A program made the position numbers and the translations under genes. Below, piece after piece: positions 10,752-26,212 of a stretch of 36,093 nt of DNA; within the stretch, counting starts at the first letter, position 1; every line of letters begins with the position of its first letter. Origin of the DNA: Candidatus Planktophila sp. (GTDB lineage: Bacteria > Actinomycetota > Actinomycetes > Nanopelagicales > Nanopelagicaceae). The notes beneath the pieces are model-generated. The model did no database searches and was not told the DNA's origin. It saw only the letters and a list, made by a program, of their open reading frames with translations. The DNA is taken from positions 1-36,093 of the forward strand of contig JAIOWZ010000014.1 in assembly GCA_021741905.1 (NCBI GenBank). The letters are read 5' to 3'.

Positions 10752-10872
10752 AGTCCTTCACCAGCACTTGCCGCCAAGGCGACCTGTTCGTCACCCGGAG
10801 CACCCCGCCGCGGTGGAGGGTTGCCGCCTACTAAGCCGGGGCTAATACGTAGGACTCGTGAACGGTGTAATT
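10752..10872 (-). promoter_or_regulatory. SAM-IV-like (S-adenosylmethionine) riboswitch upstream of metX
   Basis: Read on the minus strand, the leader contains the conserved core 'CGGCAACCCTCC', 'CGCGGCGGGGTGC' and 'CCGGGTGA'. It opens with 'GTTCACGAGT', and the GTTC / GAAC pair closes P1. CCTAC/GTAGG forms P2. A further hairpin (GTCGC-CTTG-GCGGC) lies 3' of P1, as in the SAM-IV architecture known from actinobacteria. It ends just before the metX ribosome-binding site, so control could be translational. The assignment is by eye; SAM-I/IV variants are hard to separate this way. Confidence 0.88.
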
Positions 10873-11434: not shown

Positions 11435-12175
11435 TTATCCTTTGAAAGTAGTGGGTGCTTTAACGACGGTGACTAATGCGATGGTGATTTTCTTGACAGT
11501 TCCGGTGACTGCGCGAGCGGCAGCGTTGTGTGTGTAGGTGCCATTCCAAGTTGTTAACAAAGTGATTTGATAGGTGCCTGGTTGCTTATATGTGTGTTGG
11601 ATTGTGCCGTTGGGATAAGGAGCACCGTTTTCGGTTGTGGCATAAACACCGCCATCACCAAAGCTCCAGACAAATGACGGGCGCAATGCCACATCAACAA
11701 CTTCACCGATGATGTCAATGCGACTTTGAAAAAGTGTTGGCAGGTCACACCAGAAATACACCGGAACATTTACCAGCGGTTCAAATTCAGGCTGGTATGC
11801 AACACCAGCTGTGGGAACCATCGTGGTTAAGCGATCACTCAAATTGACCTTGGTGACAGCCTTTTTTATGCGAGGTTTATAGGTGCGCTTAACCGTTGGT
11901 TTCTTAACAACCGGTTTGACTGCTTCAGCAGGTGGAAAAAACAAAGGTATAGCCTTTGGAGTAGGAGTTACTTTCGGCGCTACTTTTTTAGGAGCTTGGG
12001 TAATCGTTTTCTTGACCGTAGTAGAGCCCTTATGGGCTTCGATAATGATTTGATTGTTATCGGTATAGACATTGATGCAGGCTGTTTCTGCGCATTCCTC
12101 GGCAGCAACGCCTGCCGGCATGCCCCAAACTGCAAGTAAGAGAACTAGAAATATCGTGAACATGTGCGCCACCAT
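11435..12175 (-). CDS. Secreted PKD-domain protein with basic Pro/Lys-rich linker
   Basis: This 246-residue protein has an N-terminal hydrophobic signal ('MFTIFLVLLLAVWGMPAGVAA'). A short Cys-containing segment and a Lys/Pro/Thr-rich linker ('KPVVKKPTVKRTYKPRIKKA') follow, then a C-terminal PKD-type Ig fold with the diagnostic 'PSFVWSFGDGG' and 'HTYKQPGTYQITLLTTW' motifs. PKD domains usually mediate protein-protein or protein-carbohydrate contacts outside the cell; no catalytic site is visible. The ATG at 12175 is kept, though an internal ATG at 12163 would still leave a full signal peptide. It diverges from the NUDIX gene across 67 bases. The role is unknown; surface structural or adhesion use is inference. 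Confidence 0.75.
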   Translation of the reverse strand: MVAHMFTIFLVLLLAVWGMPAGVAAEECAETACINVYTDNNQIIIEAHKGSTTVKKTITQAPKKVAPKVTPTPKAIPLFFPPAEAVKPVVKKPTVKRTYKPRIKKAVTKVNLSDRLTTMVPTAGVAYQPEFEPLVNVPVYFWCDLPTLFQSRIDIIGEVVDVALRPSFVWSFGDGGVYATTENGAPYPNGTIQHTYKQPGTYQITLLTTWNGTYTHNAAARAVTGTVKKITIALVTVVKAPTTFKG

Positions 12176-12242: not shown

Positions 12243-12710
12243 ATGGCAGCGCGCGATGGTGATGGTTGGGTGCAATGCGCCTGCGGCAATAAGCACTGGG
12301 GTCTTAATGGCGCAGCTGGAATCCTGATCCTTCGTGGCACAGAAATCTTGTTACAGCACCGTGCCCCCTGGGTGCATAACGGCGACACATGGGGAATTCC
12401 AGGCGGTGCGCGAGATTCTCATGAAAGCACCATTGAAGGGGCGTTTCGGGAAGCGGTGGAAGAAACGGGAATCAACATAGATTTACTGACACCTCTTCAT
12501 ACATTTACCGATGATCACGGTAGTTGGAAATATGAAACTGTTATTGCACGTGCTGCAGCTGGCTTAGTTGCCCATGAAGTCAACGATGAATCTCATGAAG
12601 TCCGCTGGGTCGAGATTGAAACAGTAAGTGAACTGCCATTACACCCAAGTTTTGCAAACTCCTGGCCCGAATTAAAGAAATTGCTTAATGACTTTATCGG
12701 CCCACGTTAA
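12243..12710 (+). CDS. NUDIX hydrolase
   Basis: A 155-residue protein with a complete Nudix box, G-x5-E-x7-REAVEETG ('GGARDSHE' followed by 'REAVEETGI'), which binds Mg2+ and hydrolyses nucleoside-diphosphate-linked substrates. Before it stand 'CACGNKHWGLNGAAGILIL' and 'DTWGIPGG', common in actinobacterial 8-oxo-dGTPase-like proteins. The CxC-x4-H start might bind metal, but that is not established. The substrate cannot be read from the sequence; nucleotide-pool sanitation is the usual guess. The last 39 bases overlap the 3' end of the convergent ABC ATPase gene, so the two genes share coding DNA on opposite strands. Confidence 0.92.
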   Translation: MAARDGDGWVQCACGNKHWGLNGAAGILILRGTEILLQHRAPWVHNGDTWGIPGGARDSHESTIEGAFREAVEETGINIDLLTPLHTFTDDHGSWKYETVIARAAAGLVAHEVNDESHEVRWVEIETVSELPLHPSFANSWPELKKLLNDFIGPR

Positions 12711-13262
12711 ATCTGCTTCCTCGCTGTGGGCAACAACAACAACTGTTACGCCGCCTTCTGCTAATTTCTGAAGGAGCTGAATAATTCTTTTTCTACTACC
12801 AATATCTTGGGCAGCCAGTGGCTCATCAAGAAGTAATACCGGAGTCTTTTGTGCAATGGCGGTAGCAATTGAAACACGTTGGGCTTCTCCCCCAGATAAA
12901 GTCGTCACCTGACGACCAGCCAATGTTGTTAATTCAAGAGCCTGCATCACATCTTGAGCAGGCCCAGCCAGCTCGATAATCTGTTGAACGGTAAAGCCCA
13001 ATGTGTAGCTCTGATTTTGAATTCCCACAGCACGAATCTGTGCAAGTTGTGCGGGCGATGTCAGTATCGGGTGCAGATCATCAATTGTGATGGTGCCTTT
13101 AACCGGGGCAATATCACCGGCAATAGCAGCCAACAGCGTTGATTTACCAGAACCATTAGGGCCCACAATTGCCGTGATTGATCCAGCTGGAATCTGTTCG
13201 CTGTAATCATAAATAATCTCGCGCCCATCGCGCACGATGGTGATCTCATTAATAGTAATCAT
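12672..13262 (-). CDS. hmuV: Heme-type (FeCT family) ABC transporter ATP-binding protein
   Basis: This is the cytoplasmic ATPase of a type II importer. Walker A 'GPNGSGKST', the Q-loop region 'VGIQNQSY', signature 'LSGGEAQRVSIA', Walker B 'PVLLLDEPLAAQD' and the H-loop 'VVAHSEE' are all present in 196 residues, somewhat short for the family (about 250). ATG 13262 overlaps the permease stop in an ATGA junction, indicating translational coupling, so I prefer it over a start at 13274. The symbol follows the solute-binding protein, which looks like a hemin binder; a cobalamin or siderophore importer cannot be excluded. Its 3' end overlaps the NUDIX gene by 39 bases. Confidence 0.88.
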   Translation of the reverse strand: MITINEITIVRDGREIIYDYSEQIPAGSITAIVGPNGSGKSTLLAAIAGDIAPVKGTITIDDLHPILTSPAQLAQIRAVGIQNQSYTLGFTVQQIIELAGPAQDVMQALELTTLAGRQVTTLSGGEAQRVSIATAIAQKTPVLLLDEPLAAQDIGSRKRIIQLLQKLAEGGVTVVVVAHSEEADLTWADKVIKQFL

Positions 13263-14230
13263 TGAGTTTTCCAAACATTATTCTTAACACTCACGAGTGC
13301 AATAAGAACTGGTGCACCTATCAGCGAGGTAACCAGGCCAATTGGCAATTCACCTGGTTGAGCCAGGGTTCTAGAAAGAGTGTCTGCAACCACAACTAAG
13401 AGCGCTCCAATGATGGCGGTGTGAAGTATCAATTTGCGATGAGTTGGGCCATAGATAAAACGAGCTATGTGCGGTGCTGCAAGGCCAATAAATGCAATCG
13501 AGCCAACGGTGCTAACGGCCCCACCGGCAAGTAAGGACAAGGCCACAAGTGCGAGGAAGCGAACGCGTGGTACATCTTCACCTAAATGAAATGCAGTGGC
13601 ATCTCCTAGTGAGAGTCGATCTAGCGATGGTGAAATTTTCCAGGCAATAGCCCCACCAATAATTGCCGTGATAGTAATCCCCATCAAATTCTCTCGTGTT
13701 ATTAAGGCCAGGGATCCAAAGTTCCAAAAAGAAATAGAGCGCGCATCAGCTCTTGTCACCATGGCTGATAAAAGGCCAACAATGGCGGTAAAGATGGCCG
13801 AGACTGCAATGCCCACAATGATTAATGCAAATGAAGAAAGTTGGGATCGAAGATTTGCTAACTTAAATGTTAGAGATGTTGCAACTAAAGCACCCAGTGC
13901 GCCACAAACAATGGCGCCAACAGATCCCACTTGCACAAGACCTGTTAGCACCGCCAACACTGTGCCGAGTGAGGCACCGGCTGTGGTGCCTAATATCGAA
14001 GGTTCTGCCAGTGCGTTATTGCAGGCACCCTGTGCCATTAAGCCAGCAAGGGCTAATGACGCACCAACAATGAGACCGGCTACCACGCGAGGAATACGAA
14101 TCTGCCACAAGATTTCATTACTTCCCGGAGAAAGCAAAGCTGCCCAGAAATTATCAATCTGCACCGCGCCTACATAGACCGCAATGAATGAAGCCAAAAG
14201 CAGAGCAATTGCAGGGGCTAACTTCTTCAC
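13259..14230 (-). CDS. hmuU: FecCD/BtuC-type ABC transporter permease
   Basis: A polytopic membrane protein of 323 residues with about nine to ten hydrophobic segments. Characteristic FecCD motifs are 'IRIPRVVAGLIVGASLALAGLMAQG', 'NALAEPSILGTTAGAS', 'STVGSIAFIGLAAPHIAR' (the coupling region that meets the ATPase) and 'PGELPIGLVTSLIGAPVLIAL'. It should form the heme, corrinoid or siderophore channel. The GTG start overlaps the TGA stop of the binding-protein gene by 4 bases (GTGA), and its own stop overlaps the ATPase start, so the three genes form one tightly coupled operon. Confidence 0.93.
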   Translation of the reverse strand: MKKLAPAIALLLASFIAVYVGAVQIDNFWAALLSPGSNEILWQIRIPRVVAGLIVGASLALAGLMAQGACNNALAEPSILGTTAGASLGTVLAVLTGLVQVGSVGAIVCGALGALVATSLTFKLANLRSQLSSFALIIVGIAVSAIFTAIVGLLSAMVTRADARSISFWNFGSLALITRENLMGITITAIIGGAIAWKISPSLDRLSLGDATAFHLGEDVPRVRFLALVALSLLAGGAVSTVGSIAFIGLAAPHIARFIYGPTHRKLILHTAIIGALLVVVADTLSRTLAQPGELPIGLVTSLIGAPVLIALVSVKNNVWKTQ

Positions 14231-15129
14231 TTAAGCACTGCACTTACTTTTTGGCTCAAGGCAACAACGAGGGATGGTGTTCGGGGACCAAAGGACAGAA
14301 GTAGTGAATCATCGACATCGATAATTGCCTGACTCTTACCTGCCCGTGTCTGGGCAACACCCGGAAGTTTGAGTAAGCCAGATACTCCACCAACGGATTG
14401 CAACCCCTTTGTCATGACAATGATTACCTCTGGATCTAGTGCTGCAAGGCTTTCAGCGGTCATCGTATTAAAGGGGCGTGGTAATGACACCGCTCCGACA
14501 TCGACACCACCTATTGCTGAGATTAAAGAGTCAGCACCTGATCCTGCTCCCCCAATTAAATAAATAGATGAGGTGCCGCGCAAGTATAAAAAGGCAATGC
14601 GGGGTTTGCTTGAAAGTTGTGAACTTTGGATCGCACCTGCGATGGCGGCATTGAGTAAAACCCCTTGCGCAGGTGCACCGATGGCTTCTGCAACCGCCGA
14701 AACCTTTATCGCAATATCTACCAGGGTCCAGCTTTCAGGTGTTTGCACAACCTTAATTCCAGCAGATCTAATTTGATCAATTGCAGATTTGGGGCCAGTT
14801 GATGCATCGATAATTACAAGATCAGGTTTAAGAGCGATTACTTTCTCAGGTAAAACTTGATGTCCAGATGTCACAACTGGAATTGATTCAAGTGTTTTTT
14901 CAGTACTTGAAATATCTCGACCAACAAGAATCGATCTGGCATTAAGTGAGGTCATAATCTCTGCAACACCGTTGGCAAGAACTACAACTCGAGAAACTGA
15001 AAATGGAGTAGTTGAATCTAATGAGATTGCAGAAACATCACTTTGCGAGATGGTGTTGCTCTGAGAATTCTGTGAATTAGCGCACCCTGTTAACACAATT
15101 ACCAGTGCAATAACGCCTAATCTCTTCAT
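14227..15129 (-). CDS. hmuT: Lipoprotein solute-binding protein, hemin (HmuT)-like
   Basis: The ATG at 15129 gives a 300-residue lipoprotein with a signal and lipobox LTGC (C16). A longer open frame upstream lacks signal features and overlaps the divergent gene, so it is rejected. The fold is a class III binding protein (TroA/BtuF superfamily). Segments 'RVVVLANGVAEIMTSL', 'LVGRDISS', 'GSGADSLISAIGGVD', 'MTKGLQSVGGVSGLLKLPGV' and 'DDSLLLSFGPRT' resemble HmuT hemin receptors of corynebacteria and other actinobacteria. I did not confirm the heme-ligand residues. The gene is divergent from two secreted proteins across an 85-bp region with a perfect palindrome, and it leads hmuU and hmuV. Heme uptake is the likeliest role; corrinoid uptake is the main alternative. 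Confidence 0.82.
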   Translation of the reverse strand: MKRLGVIALVIVLTGCANSQNSQSNTISQSDVSAISLDSTTPFSVSRVVVLANGVAEIMTSLNARSILVGRDISSTEKTLESIPVVTSGHQVLPEKVIALKPDLVIIDASTGPKSAIDQIRSAGIKVVQTPESWTLVDIAIKVSAVAEAIGAPAQGVLLNAAIAGAIQSSQLSSKPRIAFLYLRGTSSIYLIGGAGSGADSLISAIGGVDVGAVSLPRPFNTMTAESLAALDPEVIIVMTKGLQSVGGVSGLLKLPGVAQTRAGKSQAIIDVDDSLLLSFGPRTPSLVVALSQKVSAVLK

Positions 15130-15154
15130 GGATGTAGTGTGCCAAAACTTTGAA

Positions 15155-15177
15155 CGACAGGTGATCGAGTCCTGTCG
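15155..15177. promoter_or_regulatory. Palindromic operator candidate between hmuT and the secreted-protein genes
   Basis: A perfect 7-bp inverted repeat, CGACAGG-N9-CCTGTCG, is centred in the 85-bp divergent promoter region, 25-48 bases upstream of hmuT and 38-60 bases upstream of the opposite gene. Size and symmetry suit a dimeric repressor such as a TetR or DtxR/Fur-type protein. It does not resemble the IdeR/DtxR iron box. The protein that binds it is unknown; the TetR gene at 16634-17212 is an obvious candidate. Confidence 0.65.
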
Positions 15178-15214
15178 GATAAGCATTATGGGGGTCAGAT
15201 TTAGAGTTCTCCTC

Positions 15215-15691
15215 ATGAGAAAGCTCCTTTTCATAGTGATCGCACTACTTCCCTTTGCAATCACTCCTGCAGCAAATGCTGTCGTACTAAAAGGAGCACA
15301 AGGACAGGTTCTGACCGTTTCGGCAACTACTGCCAATAGCGGCTCGATGATCACTGTTAGTGGCAATCGTTTCGATGAAACTATCGGAATCTATTTAGCG
15401 TTTTGTGTCGTTCCTGCACCGGGTAAGGCTCCTACGCCATGTGGCGGCGGGGTTAACAAAGCTGGATTAGGAGAAGCCTCATTCTGGATTTCATCTAATC
15501 CCCCACCTTATGCAATTGGGCTGACTGAAGAGTTCTTACCCGGAGGCCGATTTACGCACAAAGTAAAGGTTTCAAAGAAAATCGGAAAGTTTGATTGCAC
15601 AAAAGTAAAGTGCGCAATAACTATTCGAGCTGATCACCTGCGTGGAAATGACAGAAGTTTTGACATGTTTGTTCCAGTAAAAATTAAATAA
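15215..15691 (+). CDS. Secreted neocarzinostatin-like Ig-fold protein, likely heme-uptake associated
   Basis: The ATG at 15215 gives 158 residues starting with a clear signal peptide ('MRKLLFIVIALLPFAITPAANA'). The mature part looks like one seven-strand Ig-type domain: 'GSMITVSGNRFDETIGIYLAFC', 'PTPCGGG', 'ASFWISSNPP', 'GGRFTHKVKV', 'FDCTKVKCAITIRADH' and 'DRSFDMFVPVKI'. This order of strands and paired cysteines recalls the neocarzinostatin/macromomycin fold and the extra domains of actinobacterial HtaA-type heme proteins. No enzyme motif is visible. Position opposite hmuT and eight bases before a related gene suggests extracellular heme capture or delivery; that role is inference. Longer in-frame starts at 15128 or 15188 would bury the signal peptide. 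Confidence 0.75.
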   Translation: MRKLLFIVIALLPFAITPAANAVVLKGAQGQVLTVSATTANSGSMITVSGNRFDETIGIYLAFCVVPAPGKAPTPCGGGVNKAGLGEASFWISSNPPPYAIGLTEEFLPGGRFTHKVKVSKKIGKFDCTKVKCAITIRADHLRGNDRSFDMFVPVKIK

Positions 15692-15699
15692 GGAGAAAA

Positions 15700-16641
15700 A
15701 TGAAAAAGATTATCGTCGCCTTAGCCTTAATAGGATCTCTCTTGGTTCCGGCTTCGGCAAACGCTGCCGAAACTAAGTTCACCGGTGCACCTCTGACTAA
15801 CCTAGATTCACAAGGTGCCACAATCAACATCATGTTGCTGGGAGTTCCTGCAAAGGGTGGTTTATATATTCAGGAGTGTGTTGAAGCACCTGCCGGAACA
15901 CGATCAGCACTGTGCAATACGGCAGTTCAACTATGGATTTCTACTGCGCGTGGTGCATCCTTCTTGCCTACCGATGTCATCAAGTTCAAGCCCACCGGTA
16001 GCTTTGTCTCAGGTGCCGCTACCGTTGATTGCACAGTCTCTAAGTGCGGAATTTTTATGCGCTATGACCACACGGTGCCCGGAGATCTCTCTGAGGATCA
16101 ATTCATTCCACTCACTTTCAAAGCTGCAACCGCCGAAAATGTCGCCCTTCCAGTTGATGAGATCACAGCCACAATCAACGGAGTTGCTGTCAGCACAAAG
16201 GCTCCGATCACCCTTGGGTATCGCCAACTATCGACGGTGTCAGCGGTTTCAAAAGCTGGAGCAACGCTGACCTTTGCATCCTTAGATCCAAACTGCGCGC
16301 TCAAAGGAACAGAAATAACACCGCTAAAGGGCGCTGGTGAGTGCGCAATTTCAGTTACCTCTGCAGGAAATACAACAGCATCTGGCATAACAGCGATTCT
16401 GCCGATTCGATTAGCACTTGGAGTTCAGACAATTCCTGCGATTGCTGCAAAAAAGTCAGTCAGCCTTGCCACTACAACAAATTTTGGACAGAAAGTTACT
16501 TATAAGGCAACTGGTAATTGTTCGATTATGAAAAATACTTTGAATGCAAAAAAGGGTACGTGCACTGTTACTGCAACTGCGGCAGGTCAAGCAGGATTGT
16601 TTGCTCCACTGAGCACAAAGGTTGTACTAAAGATTAAATAG
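15700..16641 (+). CDS. Secreted two-part protein with a neocarzinostatin-like N-terminal domain
   Basis: A 313-residue protein with signal peptide 'MKKIIVALALIGSLLVPASANA'; AGGAG is placed 5 bases before the ATG. The N-terminal half repeats the pattern of the preceding gene: 'GGLYIQECVEAP', paired Cys, 'LWISTARGASFL', 'GSFVSGAATVDCTVSKCGIFMRYDH' and 'EDQFIPLTF'. The C-terminal half is Ala/Thr/Lys-rich and beta-like, with Cys pairs ('NCALKGTEI', 'GECAISV', 'GNCSIMKNT', 'GTCTVTA'), similar to bacterial cell-surface Ig-like repeats. Probably co-transcribed with the 15215 gene. No sorting motif or C-terminal membrane anchor is seen, so it is likely secreted or wall-associated. It ends 8 bases inside the convergent TetR gene. 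The function, perhaps heme binding, is inferred from its neighbours only. Confidence 0.75.
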   Translation: MKKIIVALALIGSLLVPASANAAETKFTGAPLTNLDSQGATINIMLLGVPAKGGLYIQECVEAPAGTRSALCNTAVQLWISTARGASFLPTDVIKFKPTGSFVSGAATVDCTVSKCGIFMRYDHTVPGDLSEDQFIPLTFKAATAENVALPVDEITATINGVAVSTKAPITLGYRQLSTVSAVSKAGATLTFASLDPNCALKGTEITPLKGAGECAISVTSAGNTTASGITAILPIRLALGVQTIPAIAAKKSVSLATTTNFGQKVTYKATGNCSIMKNTLNAKKGTCTVTATAAGQAGLFAPLSTKVVLKIK

Positions 16642-17212
16642 AGGTTAGGCCAGCGATGCAGAATGCGGTAGCAGATTTAATCTCTGCTTCTGCATCATGG
16701 CCCGCTTCAATACGCTTTGTTGAAGCATCTGTAATTGCTTGGATAAACAAAAGCGCGCGCTGAGTATCTTTAACTCCCATGGCGCTCAATCCGCTCACAA
16801 GGGGTGCAAGTAATCCACGGTGGGCGGAGCCAATAGCTGCCGCGCGTTCTTGCGGTAGTGATGTTGCATTCAGCGCCTTTGCTAACAAGTGACGACCATC
16901 TGCAATATATGTCAAGGCGCTTTGTATCCAAGCCTCAATGCTTGAAAGTGGCTGGTCGGTATCTGCGACAGCTTCTTGCAAATACTGGGCAAAATTGTTG
17001 AGCTCTTCTAACACTAAATCTGCAATCAAATCTGCGCTACTACCAAAGTATTCATATACAGAGGTTCTAGATAATCCCGCTCGCTGTGCAACCGCTGCAA
17101 CTGTCACAGCAGCTCCCCCAGACTCAAGGGCGATACTTGCAGCAGCTTCGATTAATTGGTTGCGACGCCAATCACGGTGCTGTGCAAGTGTTTCGGTTTC
17201 AATGCGAGGCAT
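16634..17212 (-). CDS. TetR/AcrR family transcriptional regulator
   Basis: A 192-residue protein with a TetR DNA-binding domain: 'LIEAAASIALESGGAAVTVAAVAQRAGLSRTSVYEYFGSSADLI' in short form, with the helix-turn-helix at about 37-56 and the 'vYeYFgs' hallmark at 52-58. The C-terminal ligand domain is variable and gives no ligand. The gene is the last of a minus-strand run (prpB-prpC-prpD-dinG-tetR), starting 4 bases after dinG. It could regulate that run or, by proximity, the heme cluster whose promoter carries a palindrome at 15155-15177. Neither is shown by the sequence. Confidence 0.92.
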   Translation of the reverse strand: MPRIETETLAQHRDWRRNQLIEAAASIALESGGAAVTVAAVAQRAGLSRTSVYEYFGSSADLIADLVLEELNNFAQYLQEAVADTDQPLSSIEAWIQSALTYIADGRHLLAKALNATSLPQERAAAIGSAHRGLLAPLVSGLSAMGVKDTQRALLFIQAITDASTKRIEAGHDAEAEIKSATAFCIAGLTSI

Positions 17213-26015: not shown

Positions 26016-26085
26016 TGGGTGCACACCAAACTCTTTAAAGTAAGGCAAGCGCACAAAGAAGGTAGGCACAAGCCGACCCTTTGTT

Positions 26086-26212
26086 GGTTTCCTCTCATCC
26101 GGACTTTAACCGTCGGTCTCAGAATTTCACTGAGTCAACCGATACCTGGCAGGCATCGGGTCGCGGACTATAACCGCCGGTTCGAAATTACATCGACCCC
26201 GGAAACAACAGT
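26086..26212 (-). promoter_or_regulatory. FMN riboswitch (RFN element) controlling the rib operon
   Basis: Read on the minus strand, the conserved RFN blocks appear in order: 'GTCGATGTAATTTCG', 'ACCGGCGGTTATAGTCC', 'GCGACCCGA', 'GACTCAGTGAAATTCTGAG', 'ACCGACGGTTAAAGTCCGGATG', 'AGAGGAAACC'. P1 closes as TTTCC with GGAAA, extended by GTTG/CAAC. Binding of FMN would be expected to favour the downstream terminator at 25980-26015. The 25980-26307 gene-free stretch is fully explained by this element, its terminator and the nrdJ terminator. Confidence 0.96.

Follow-up and report, generated by a model that had tools for sequence, protein, structure and literature searches.

A contig of Candidatus Planktophila sp. 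(GCA_021741905.1, JAIOWZ010000014.1; 36,093 nucleotides, the whole of which is referred to here as the window) carries a divergent gene cluster that is probably the locus by which a heme-auxotrophic acI bacterium acquires heme. One arm encodes an importer of the HmuTUV kind. The other encodes two secreted proteins, P1 and P2, of which P1, and probably P2 as well, would catch heme and present it to the importer. The window is one of the 44 contigs of a 1.25 Mb genome, and the locus is also present in its closest named relatives, the freshwater acI bacteria (order Nanopelagicales) Planktophila versatilis MMS-IA-79, P. lacus MMS-21-148, IMCC25003 and LanE-43. Its features are as follows.

12672..13262, minus strand: HmuV-like ATP-binding cassette (ABC) ATPase, 196 amino acids (aa); PF00005, 1e-27
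13259..14230, minus strand: HmuU-like FecCD permease, 323 aa; PF01032, 2.3e-78
14227..15129, minus strand: HmuT-like heme receptor lipoprotein, 300 aa; lipobox LTGC; PF01497, 2.4e-22; His90, Tyr182 and Arg184
15154..15178, no strand: candidate operator ACGACA-N13-TGTCGG in the shared divergent promoter region; consensus CCGACA-N13-TGTCGG
15215..15691, plus strand: P1, secreted single-domain protein of predicted neocarzinostatin fold (structure model), 158 aa
15700..16641, plus strand: P2, secreted, 313 aa; predicted neocarzinostatin-fold domain at about 24-142, immunoglobulin (Ig)-like domains at 148-240 and 241-313
16634..17212, minus strand: TetR-family regulator; PF00440, 4.2e-9

An initial annotation, made from the sequence, had described a three-gene hmuTUV-like importer with 4-base overlaps, divergent across 85 bp from the secreted pair. 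This layout is exact: the overlaps lie at 13259-13262 (ATGA) and 14227-14230, and precisely 85 bp separate the receptor start at 15129 from the P1 start at 15215. The assignment to heme also stands, and we consider the importer almost certainly specific for it, given its nearest solved relatives, its axial-ligand residues, its mutual exclusion with heme synthesis and the separate B12 importer of related genomes. When a profile built from 35 receptors was compared with solved structures, heme receptors were the top matches (RhuT 5gj3, 7e-60; CgHmuT 5az3, 2e-59); matches to RhuT, CgHmuT, YpHmuT (Yersinia HmuT), ShuT and BhuT spanned 1e-42 to 1e-60, and the heme receptor HutB was also matched. 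Heme in Corynebacterium glutamicum HmuT is held by His141 and Tyr240, with Arg242 assisting (PMC4926363). These residues align to His90, Tyr182 and Arg184 of the locus receptor, and their equivalents are invariant in 62/62 aligned relatives (the 35 receptors plus 27 from other orders and classes). A FecCD permease and an ABC ATPase are encoded in the same operon, and the best NCBIfam model for the ATPase is a heme ABC transporter ATP-binding protein (3e-44, under the model's cut-off).

The PF01497 and FecCD families also include importers of cobalamin and ferric siderophores, single-sequence NCBIfam scores are equally weak for BtuF and IsdE, and nearly every genome of the order encodes B12-dependent MetH-type proteins. 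Such near-universality means that the need for B12 does not track the heme-type importer. Furthermore, heme receptors outscore BtuF (8e-14 or weaker) in the profile comparison by more than 40 orders of magnitude, so that the clustering with BtuF or siderophore receptors on which the initial annotation had said its proposal would fall is not what we found. Many relatives encode a second PF01497 importer, and all four such loci examined carry an adenosylcobalamin (AdoCbl) riboswitch, indicating that B12 has its own system there. The locus receptor is the sole PF01497 protein found in the window's genome, a search across the window detected no cobalamin riboswitch, and by these marks the importer is not of the BtuFCD cobalamin type. 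Cobalamin or siderophore import was rejected as very improbable on the basis of the profile comparison, the invariant heme ligands and the separate riboswitch-controlled B12 importer.

The distribution of the importer points to heme as well. We surveyed the order Nanopelagicales (acI), using 113 good genomes for HemE, ferrochelatase and HtaA and 108 good genomes for the importer. Both HemE and ferrochelatase are confined to the same 8 genomes among the 113; the importer occurs in 53/108 and in none of those 8. The chance of zero overlap between importer and HemE is 0.0035 overall and 0.0017 when stratified by genus, with relatedness within genus uncorrected. Genus g11 carries the importer in 16 of its 17 good genomes, and the sole exception, G099, is also the only one able to make heme; it retains a second-type PF01497 importer. 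Neither ferrochelatase nor HemE was detectable in the window's genome, and ferrochelatase was not found in any importer-bearing genome of the survey. A heme-copper oxidase is present in every sampled genome of the order, so heme is needed throughout it. Judged by gene content, the order is mostly heme-auxotrophic. Heme receptors often accept other porphyrins, and the true ligand might on that ground be a tetrapyrrole without iron or a pigment derived from chlorophyll; importer genomes, lacking ferrochelatase, would have no means of turning an iron-free porphyrin into heme, and we regard this alternative as very improbable. As no genome with the importer has ferrochelatase, we also rejected the import of coproporphyrin followed by a late heme pathway. 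Heme auxotrophy is reported for Planktophila and the acI group (PMC12381374, PMC10202952).

P1 is tightly linked to this heme importer. Within the order, the receptor is present in 107/107 genomes with a strong P1 match, and P1 is found in 107 of the 111 receptor genomes; among the four lacking a strong P1 match, three have receptors that are partial or at or near contig ends, and one holds a partial P1. The receptor adjoins P1 in 76 of 80 named loci, the remaining four being cut by contig ends. Elsewhere in the class HmuTUV adjoins P1 in 21/24 loci, and in other classes it does so in 6/6, several of which form a single operon with P1 as the first gene and a stop/start overlap with the importer genes. 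The initial annotation had asked whether the secreted pair always accompanies hmuTUV, and P1 is almost never found without the transporter; P2 is more variable, and solo P2-like relatives occur without the importer. The minimal system that it pictured is not a local one: the pairing is widespread in Actinomycetota. We conclude that P1 very likely has a role in heme acquisition.

A protective function, in which P1 and P2 sequester or buffer free heme and do not feed the importer, could be imagined because excess heme is toxic and a shared operator could control P1/P2 and the importer in opposite senses. However, the position of P1 at the head of overlapping importer operons in other classes fits joint supply, not opposite control, and we consider protection improbable. 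Importer-less genomes with a solo P2-like protein of neocarzinostatin fold include those at L059:3950-5001, L060:4275-4721 and L061:3660-4752, and in L059 and L061 the solo gene adjoins a homologue of the locus TetR regulator. At three further loci (L044, L045 and L058) the P1-like protein is a single protein of 290-310 aa, with no P1/P2 pair.

Structure models and sequence profiles agree on the nature of the secreted proteins, which each begin with a signal peptide ending in an A-x-A site (judged by eye). A neocarzinostatin fold, as first proposed from the sequence, is predicted for P1 and for the N-terminal part of P2. The best structural match of the P1 model (predicted local distance difference test, pLDDT, 84.5) is macromomycin (Z 11.6, root-mean-square deviation 2.1 over 100), and ten enediyne chromoprotein structures match at Z 9.0-11.6, with the next fold at 7.8. 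In the P2 model (pLDDT 92.2), residues 24-142 take the same fold (chromoproteins Z 9.9-11.8; neocarzinostatin 11.7-11.8), and the Ig-like domains (148-240, 241-313) resemble Big_2/S-layer-like structures at Z 8-9. NCBIfam chromo_anti is matched by 17/19 P1 family members (best 1.2e-8), and PF00960 by 9/19 P1 relatives (up to 9.5e-5) and 6/19 P2 relatives (up to 3.5e-6); a Pfam scan of the window's own P1 and P2 gave no match, the curated cut-off of PF00960 being unreached. The Ig-like pattern that the initial annotation had noticed in both proteins (G-x-Y, W-I-S, D-C-x4-C, R-x-D-H and F-x-P) is present in each, and, as profiles and models place a neocarzinostatin-fold domain in both, it is not a chance resemblance. 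Across the phylum, P1 keeps two cysteine pairs, an SSNPPPY segment and an RxDH-DRxxD motif, and its polar invariants are Tyr60, Tyr99, Arg138, Asp140, His141, Arg147 and Asp150.

Direct binding of heme by P1 seems to us somewhat more likely than not, and P2 may bind heme likewise. An unlikely alternative is that the importer carries heme while P1 and P2 do not bind it, holding instead a hemoprotein, a heme-carrying lipid or another surface partner, or serving the importer as a subunit for assembly or docking. The best solved sequence relative of both the P1 and the P2 profile is ThiX (7qhm chain M), a lipoprotein that forms an accessory subunit in the respiratory supercomplex of C. glutamicum; the Ig-like domains of P2 are typical of adhesive surface proteins; and where HtaA and neocarzinostatin domains are fused in one protein, as at three P1-hmuTUV loci outside the order, HtaA may do the heme binding. 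Such fusions beside hmuTUV bear out the statement in the initial annotation that HtaA is elsewhere combined with a domain of this kind, and its statement that the locus itself has no HtaA domain extends to the whole survey, PF04213 being absent from P1, P2 and all 113 good genomes of the order. The acI order therefore has no HtaA to bind heme, which speaks against the alternative. So does the makeup of P1, a soluble domain standing alone in which many polar and aromatic positions are invariant phylum-wide. Flat hydrophobic ligands, moreover, are known to be bound by the chromoprotein fold.

Several observations weigh against heme capture by P1 and P2. We found no heme-binding data for any member of the neocarzinostatin-fold family to which P1 and P2 belong. 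Tyr60 and the Asp-His motif are also present in the distant relative ThiX and may therefore be structural; the tyrosine of the PPY segment and Arg138, which ThiX lacks, appear to be the better ligand-site candidates. Sixteen genomes hold only a weak P2-like homologue and no importer. Finally, about 47 of the 108 good acI genomes have neither importer nor HemE, yet carry a heme-copper oxidase where sampled, implying that another heme route exists.

The shared palindrome reported by the initial annotation proved real. The 85-bp gap of the window contains a perfect 7-base inverted repeat, CGACAGG-N9-CCTGTCG, and CCGACA-N13-TGTCGG is kept with at most one mismatch in 63/74 related gaps, its arms conserved while the spacer varies freely (mean over the 74 gaps 0.85 mismatches, against 4.2 in shuffled gaps). 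A TetR gene follows P2 in most loci and has a homologue in 70/80 related loci; four P. versatilis-type loci without it have an operator spacer of 14. We infer that this TetR-family protein is the regulator that binds the operator. Other TetR homologues adjoin solo P2-like genes, and in the prototroph G099 one with 48% identity (L152:428-1036) is separated by about 0.15 kb from where the heme-biosynthesis cluster ends. At loci outside the order the search found no convincing operator site, which makes the operator an acI feature, and a whole-genome search revealed no clear further regulon members above control. An operator-like sequence at hemE in G099 was not used as evidence: it falls on codons 4-12 of hemE, and in G271 the same residues give rise to it again (L152:6754-6778, L153:7538-7562), so coincidence is likely.

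Under the heme-acquisition reading, P1, perhaps with P2, would be exported, and its neocarzinostatin-fold barrel would catch or present heme released in the water. The heme would be handed to the HmuT-type lipoprotein, where the His/Tyr pair would bind it, and HmuUV would import it for direct use as a ready cofactor, given that neither ferrochelatase nor HemE is detectable in the genome. The operator in the 85-bp gap would switch the two divergent arms together, with the neighboring TetR-family protein as its probable regulator.

The importer itself belongs to the known HmuTUV kind, and the novelty lies in its neocarzinostatin-fold partner. Like the HtaA/HtaB-HmuTUV system of Corynebacterium, the locus combines an HmuT lipoprotein with a His/Tyr/Arg heme site, HmuUV, and genes for extracellular partners that are candidates for heme handling. 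In contrast to that system, the partners here are of predicted neocarzinostatin fold in an order in which no HtaA (CR) domain was found, and they are two soluble secreted proteins with no evident membrane or cell-wall anchor. The Isd/NEAT and Shr/Shp systems of Firmicutes follow the logic proposed here, from surface heme catcher to ABC importer, but with an unrelated catcher domain. P1 and P2 share predicted fold, cysteine pattern and secretion with the enediyne chromoproteins neocarzinostatin and macromomycin (PF00960), whereas the window copies match these only marginally in sequence and are set apart by the invariant SSNPPPY and RxDH-DRxxD motifs and by linkage to hmuTUV; no enediyne biosynthetic genes were seen among the genes adjacent to the locus. 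ThiX, from the bcc-aa3 supercomplex, is likewise an extracytoplasmic actinobacterial protein with a sequence-related domain, but it has no SSNPPPY motif and is a lipoprotein that belongs to a respiratory complex.

The pairing of P1 with HmuTUV across many actinobacteria suggests an undescribed kind of heme catcher. P1 has a secretion signal and is linked to an importer; as a hemophore it would in addition bind heme and deliver it to that importer. Whether the P1 family constitutes phylum-wide Actinomycetota hemophores, working with HmuTUV either beside HtaA or as its substitute in the streamlined freshwater bacteria that are heme-auxotrophic, is in our judgment evenly balanced; neocarzinostatin is the carrier protein of an antitumour antibiotic, and its fold would then have a physiological role as a tetrapyrrole carrier. 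The literature searched, with most subscription papers outside its coverage, yielded no description of the heme-acquisition machinery of acI bacteria and no paper connecting heme uptake with proteins of neocarzinostatin fold. In fresh water the acI bacteria rank among the most numerous microbes, and they rely on heme from their surroundings. By naming a likely importer and a likely surface partner in a group with cultivated heme auxotrophs, the locus makes the question of how they acquire it testable. Should P1 bind heme, a new protein fold would join those used by bacteria to capture heme, and the many secreted proteins of actinobacteria whose only annotation is neocarzinostatin-like would acquire a role.

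Around the locus, a secreted PKD-domain protein (window 11435-12175, minus strand) adjoins it in most Planktophila-like genomes, and in genus g8 (L046, L047) the locus adjoins genes that read, by eye, as ResB/CcsA cytochrome c maturation. The window also carries an S-adenosylmethionine (SAM)-IV riboswitch (10759-10863, minus strand) ahead of a homoserine acetyltransferase-like gene and a flavin mononucleotide (FMN) riboswitch (26083-26210, minus strand) upstream of a gene cluster ending near 26069. Five of the loci compared (L077, L096, L098, L104 and L151) come from public records titled Bifidobacterium breve that are evidently acI metagenome bins, so these names look wrong.

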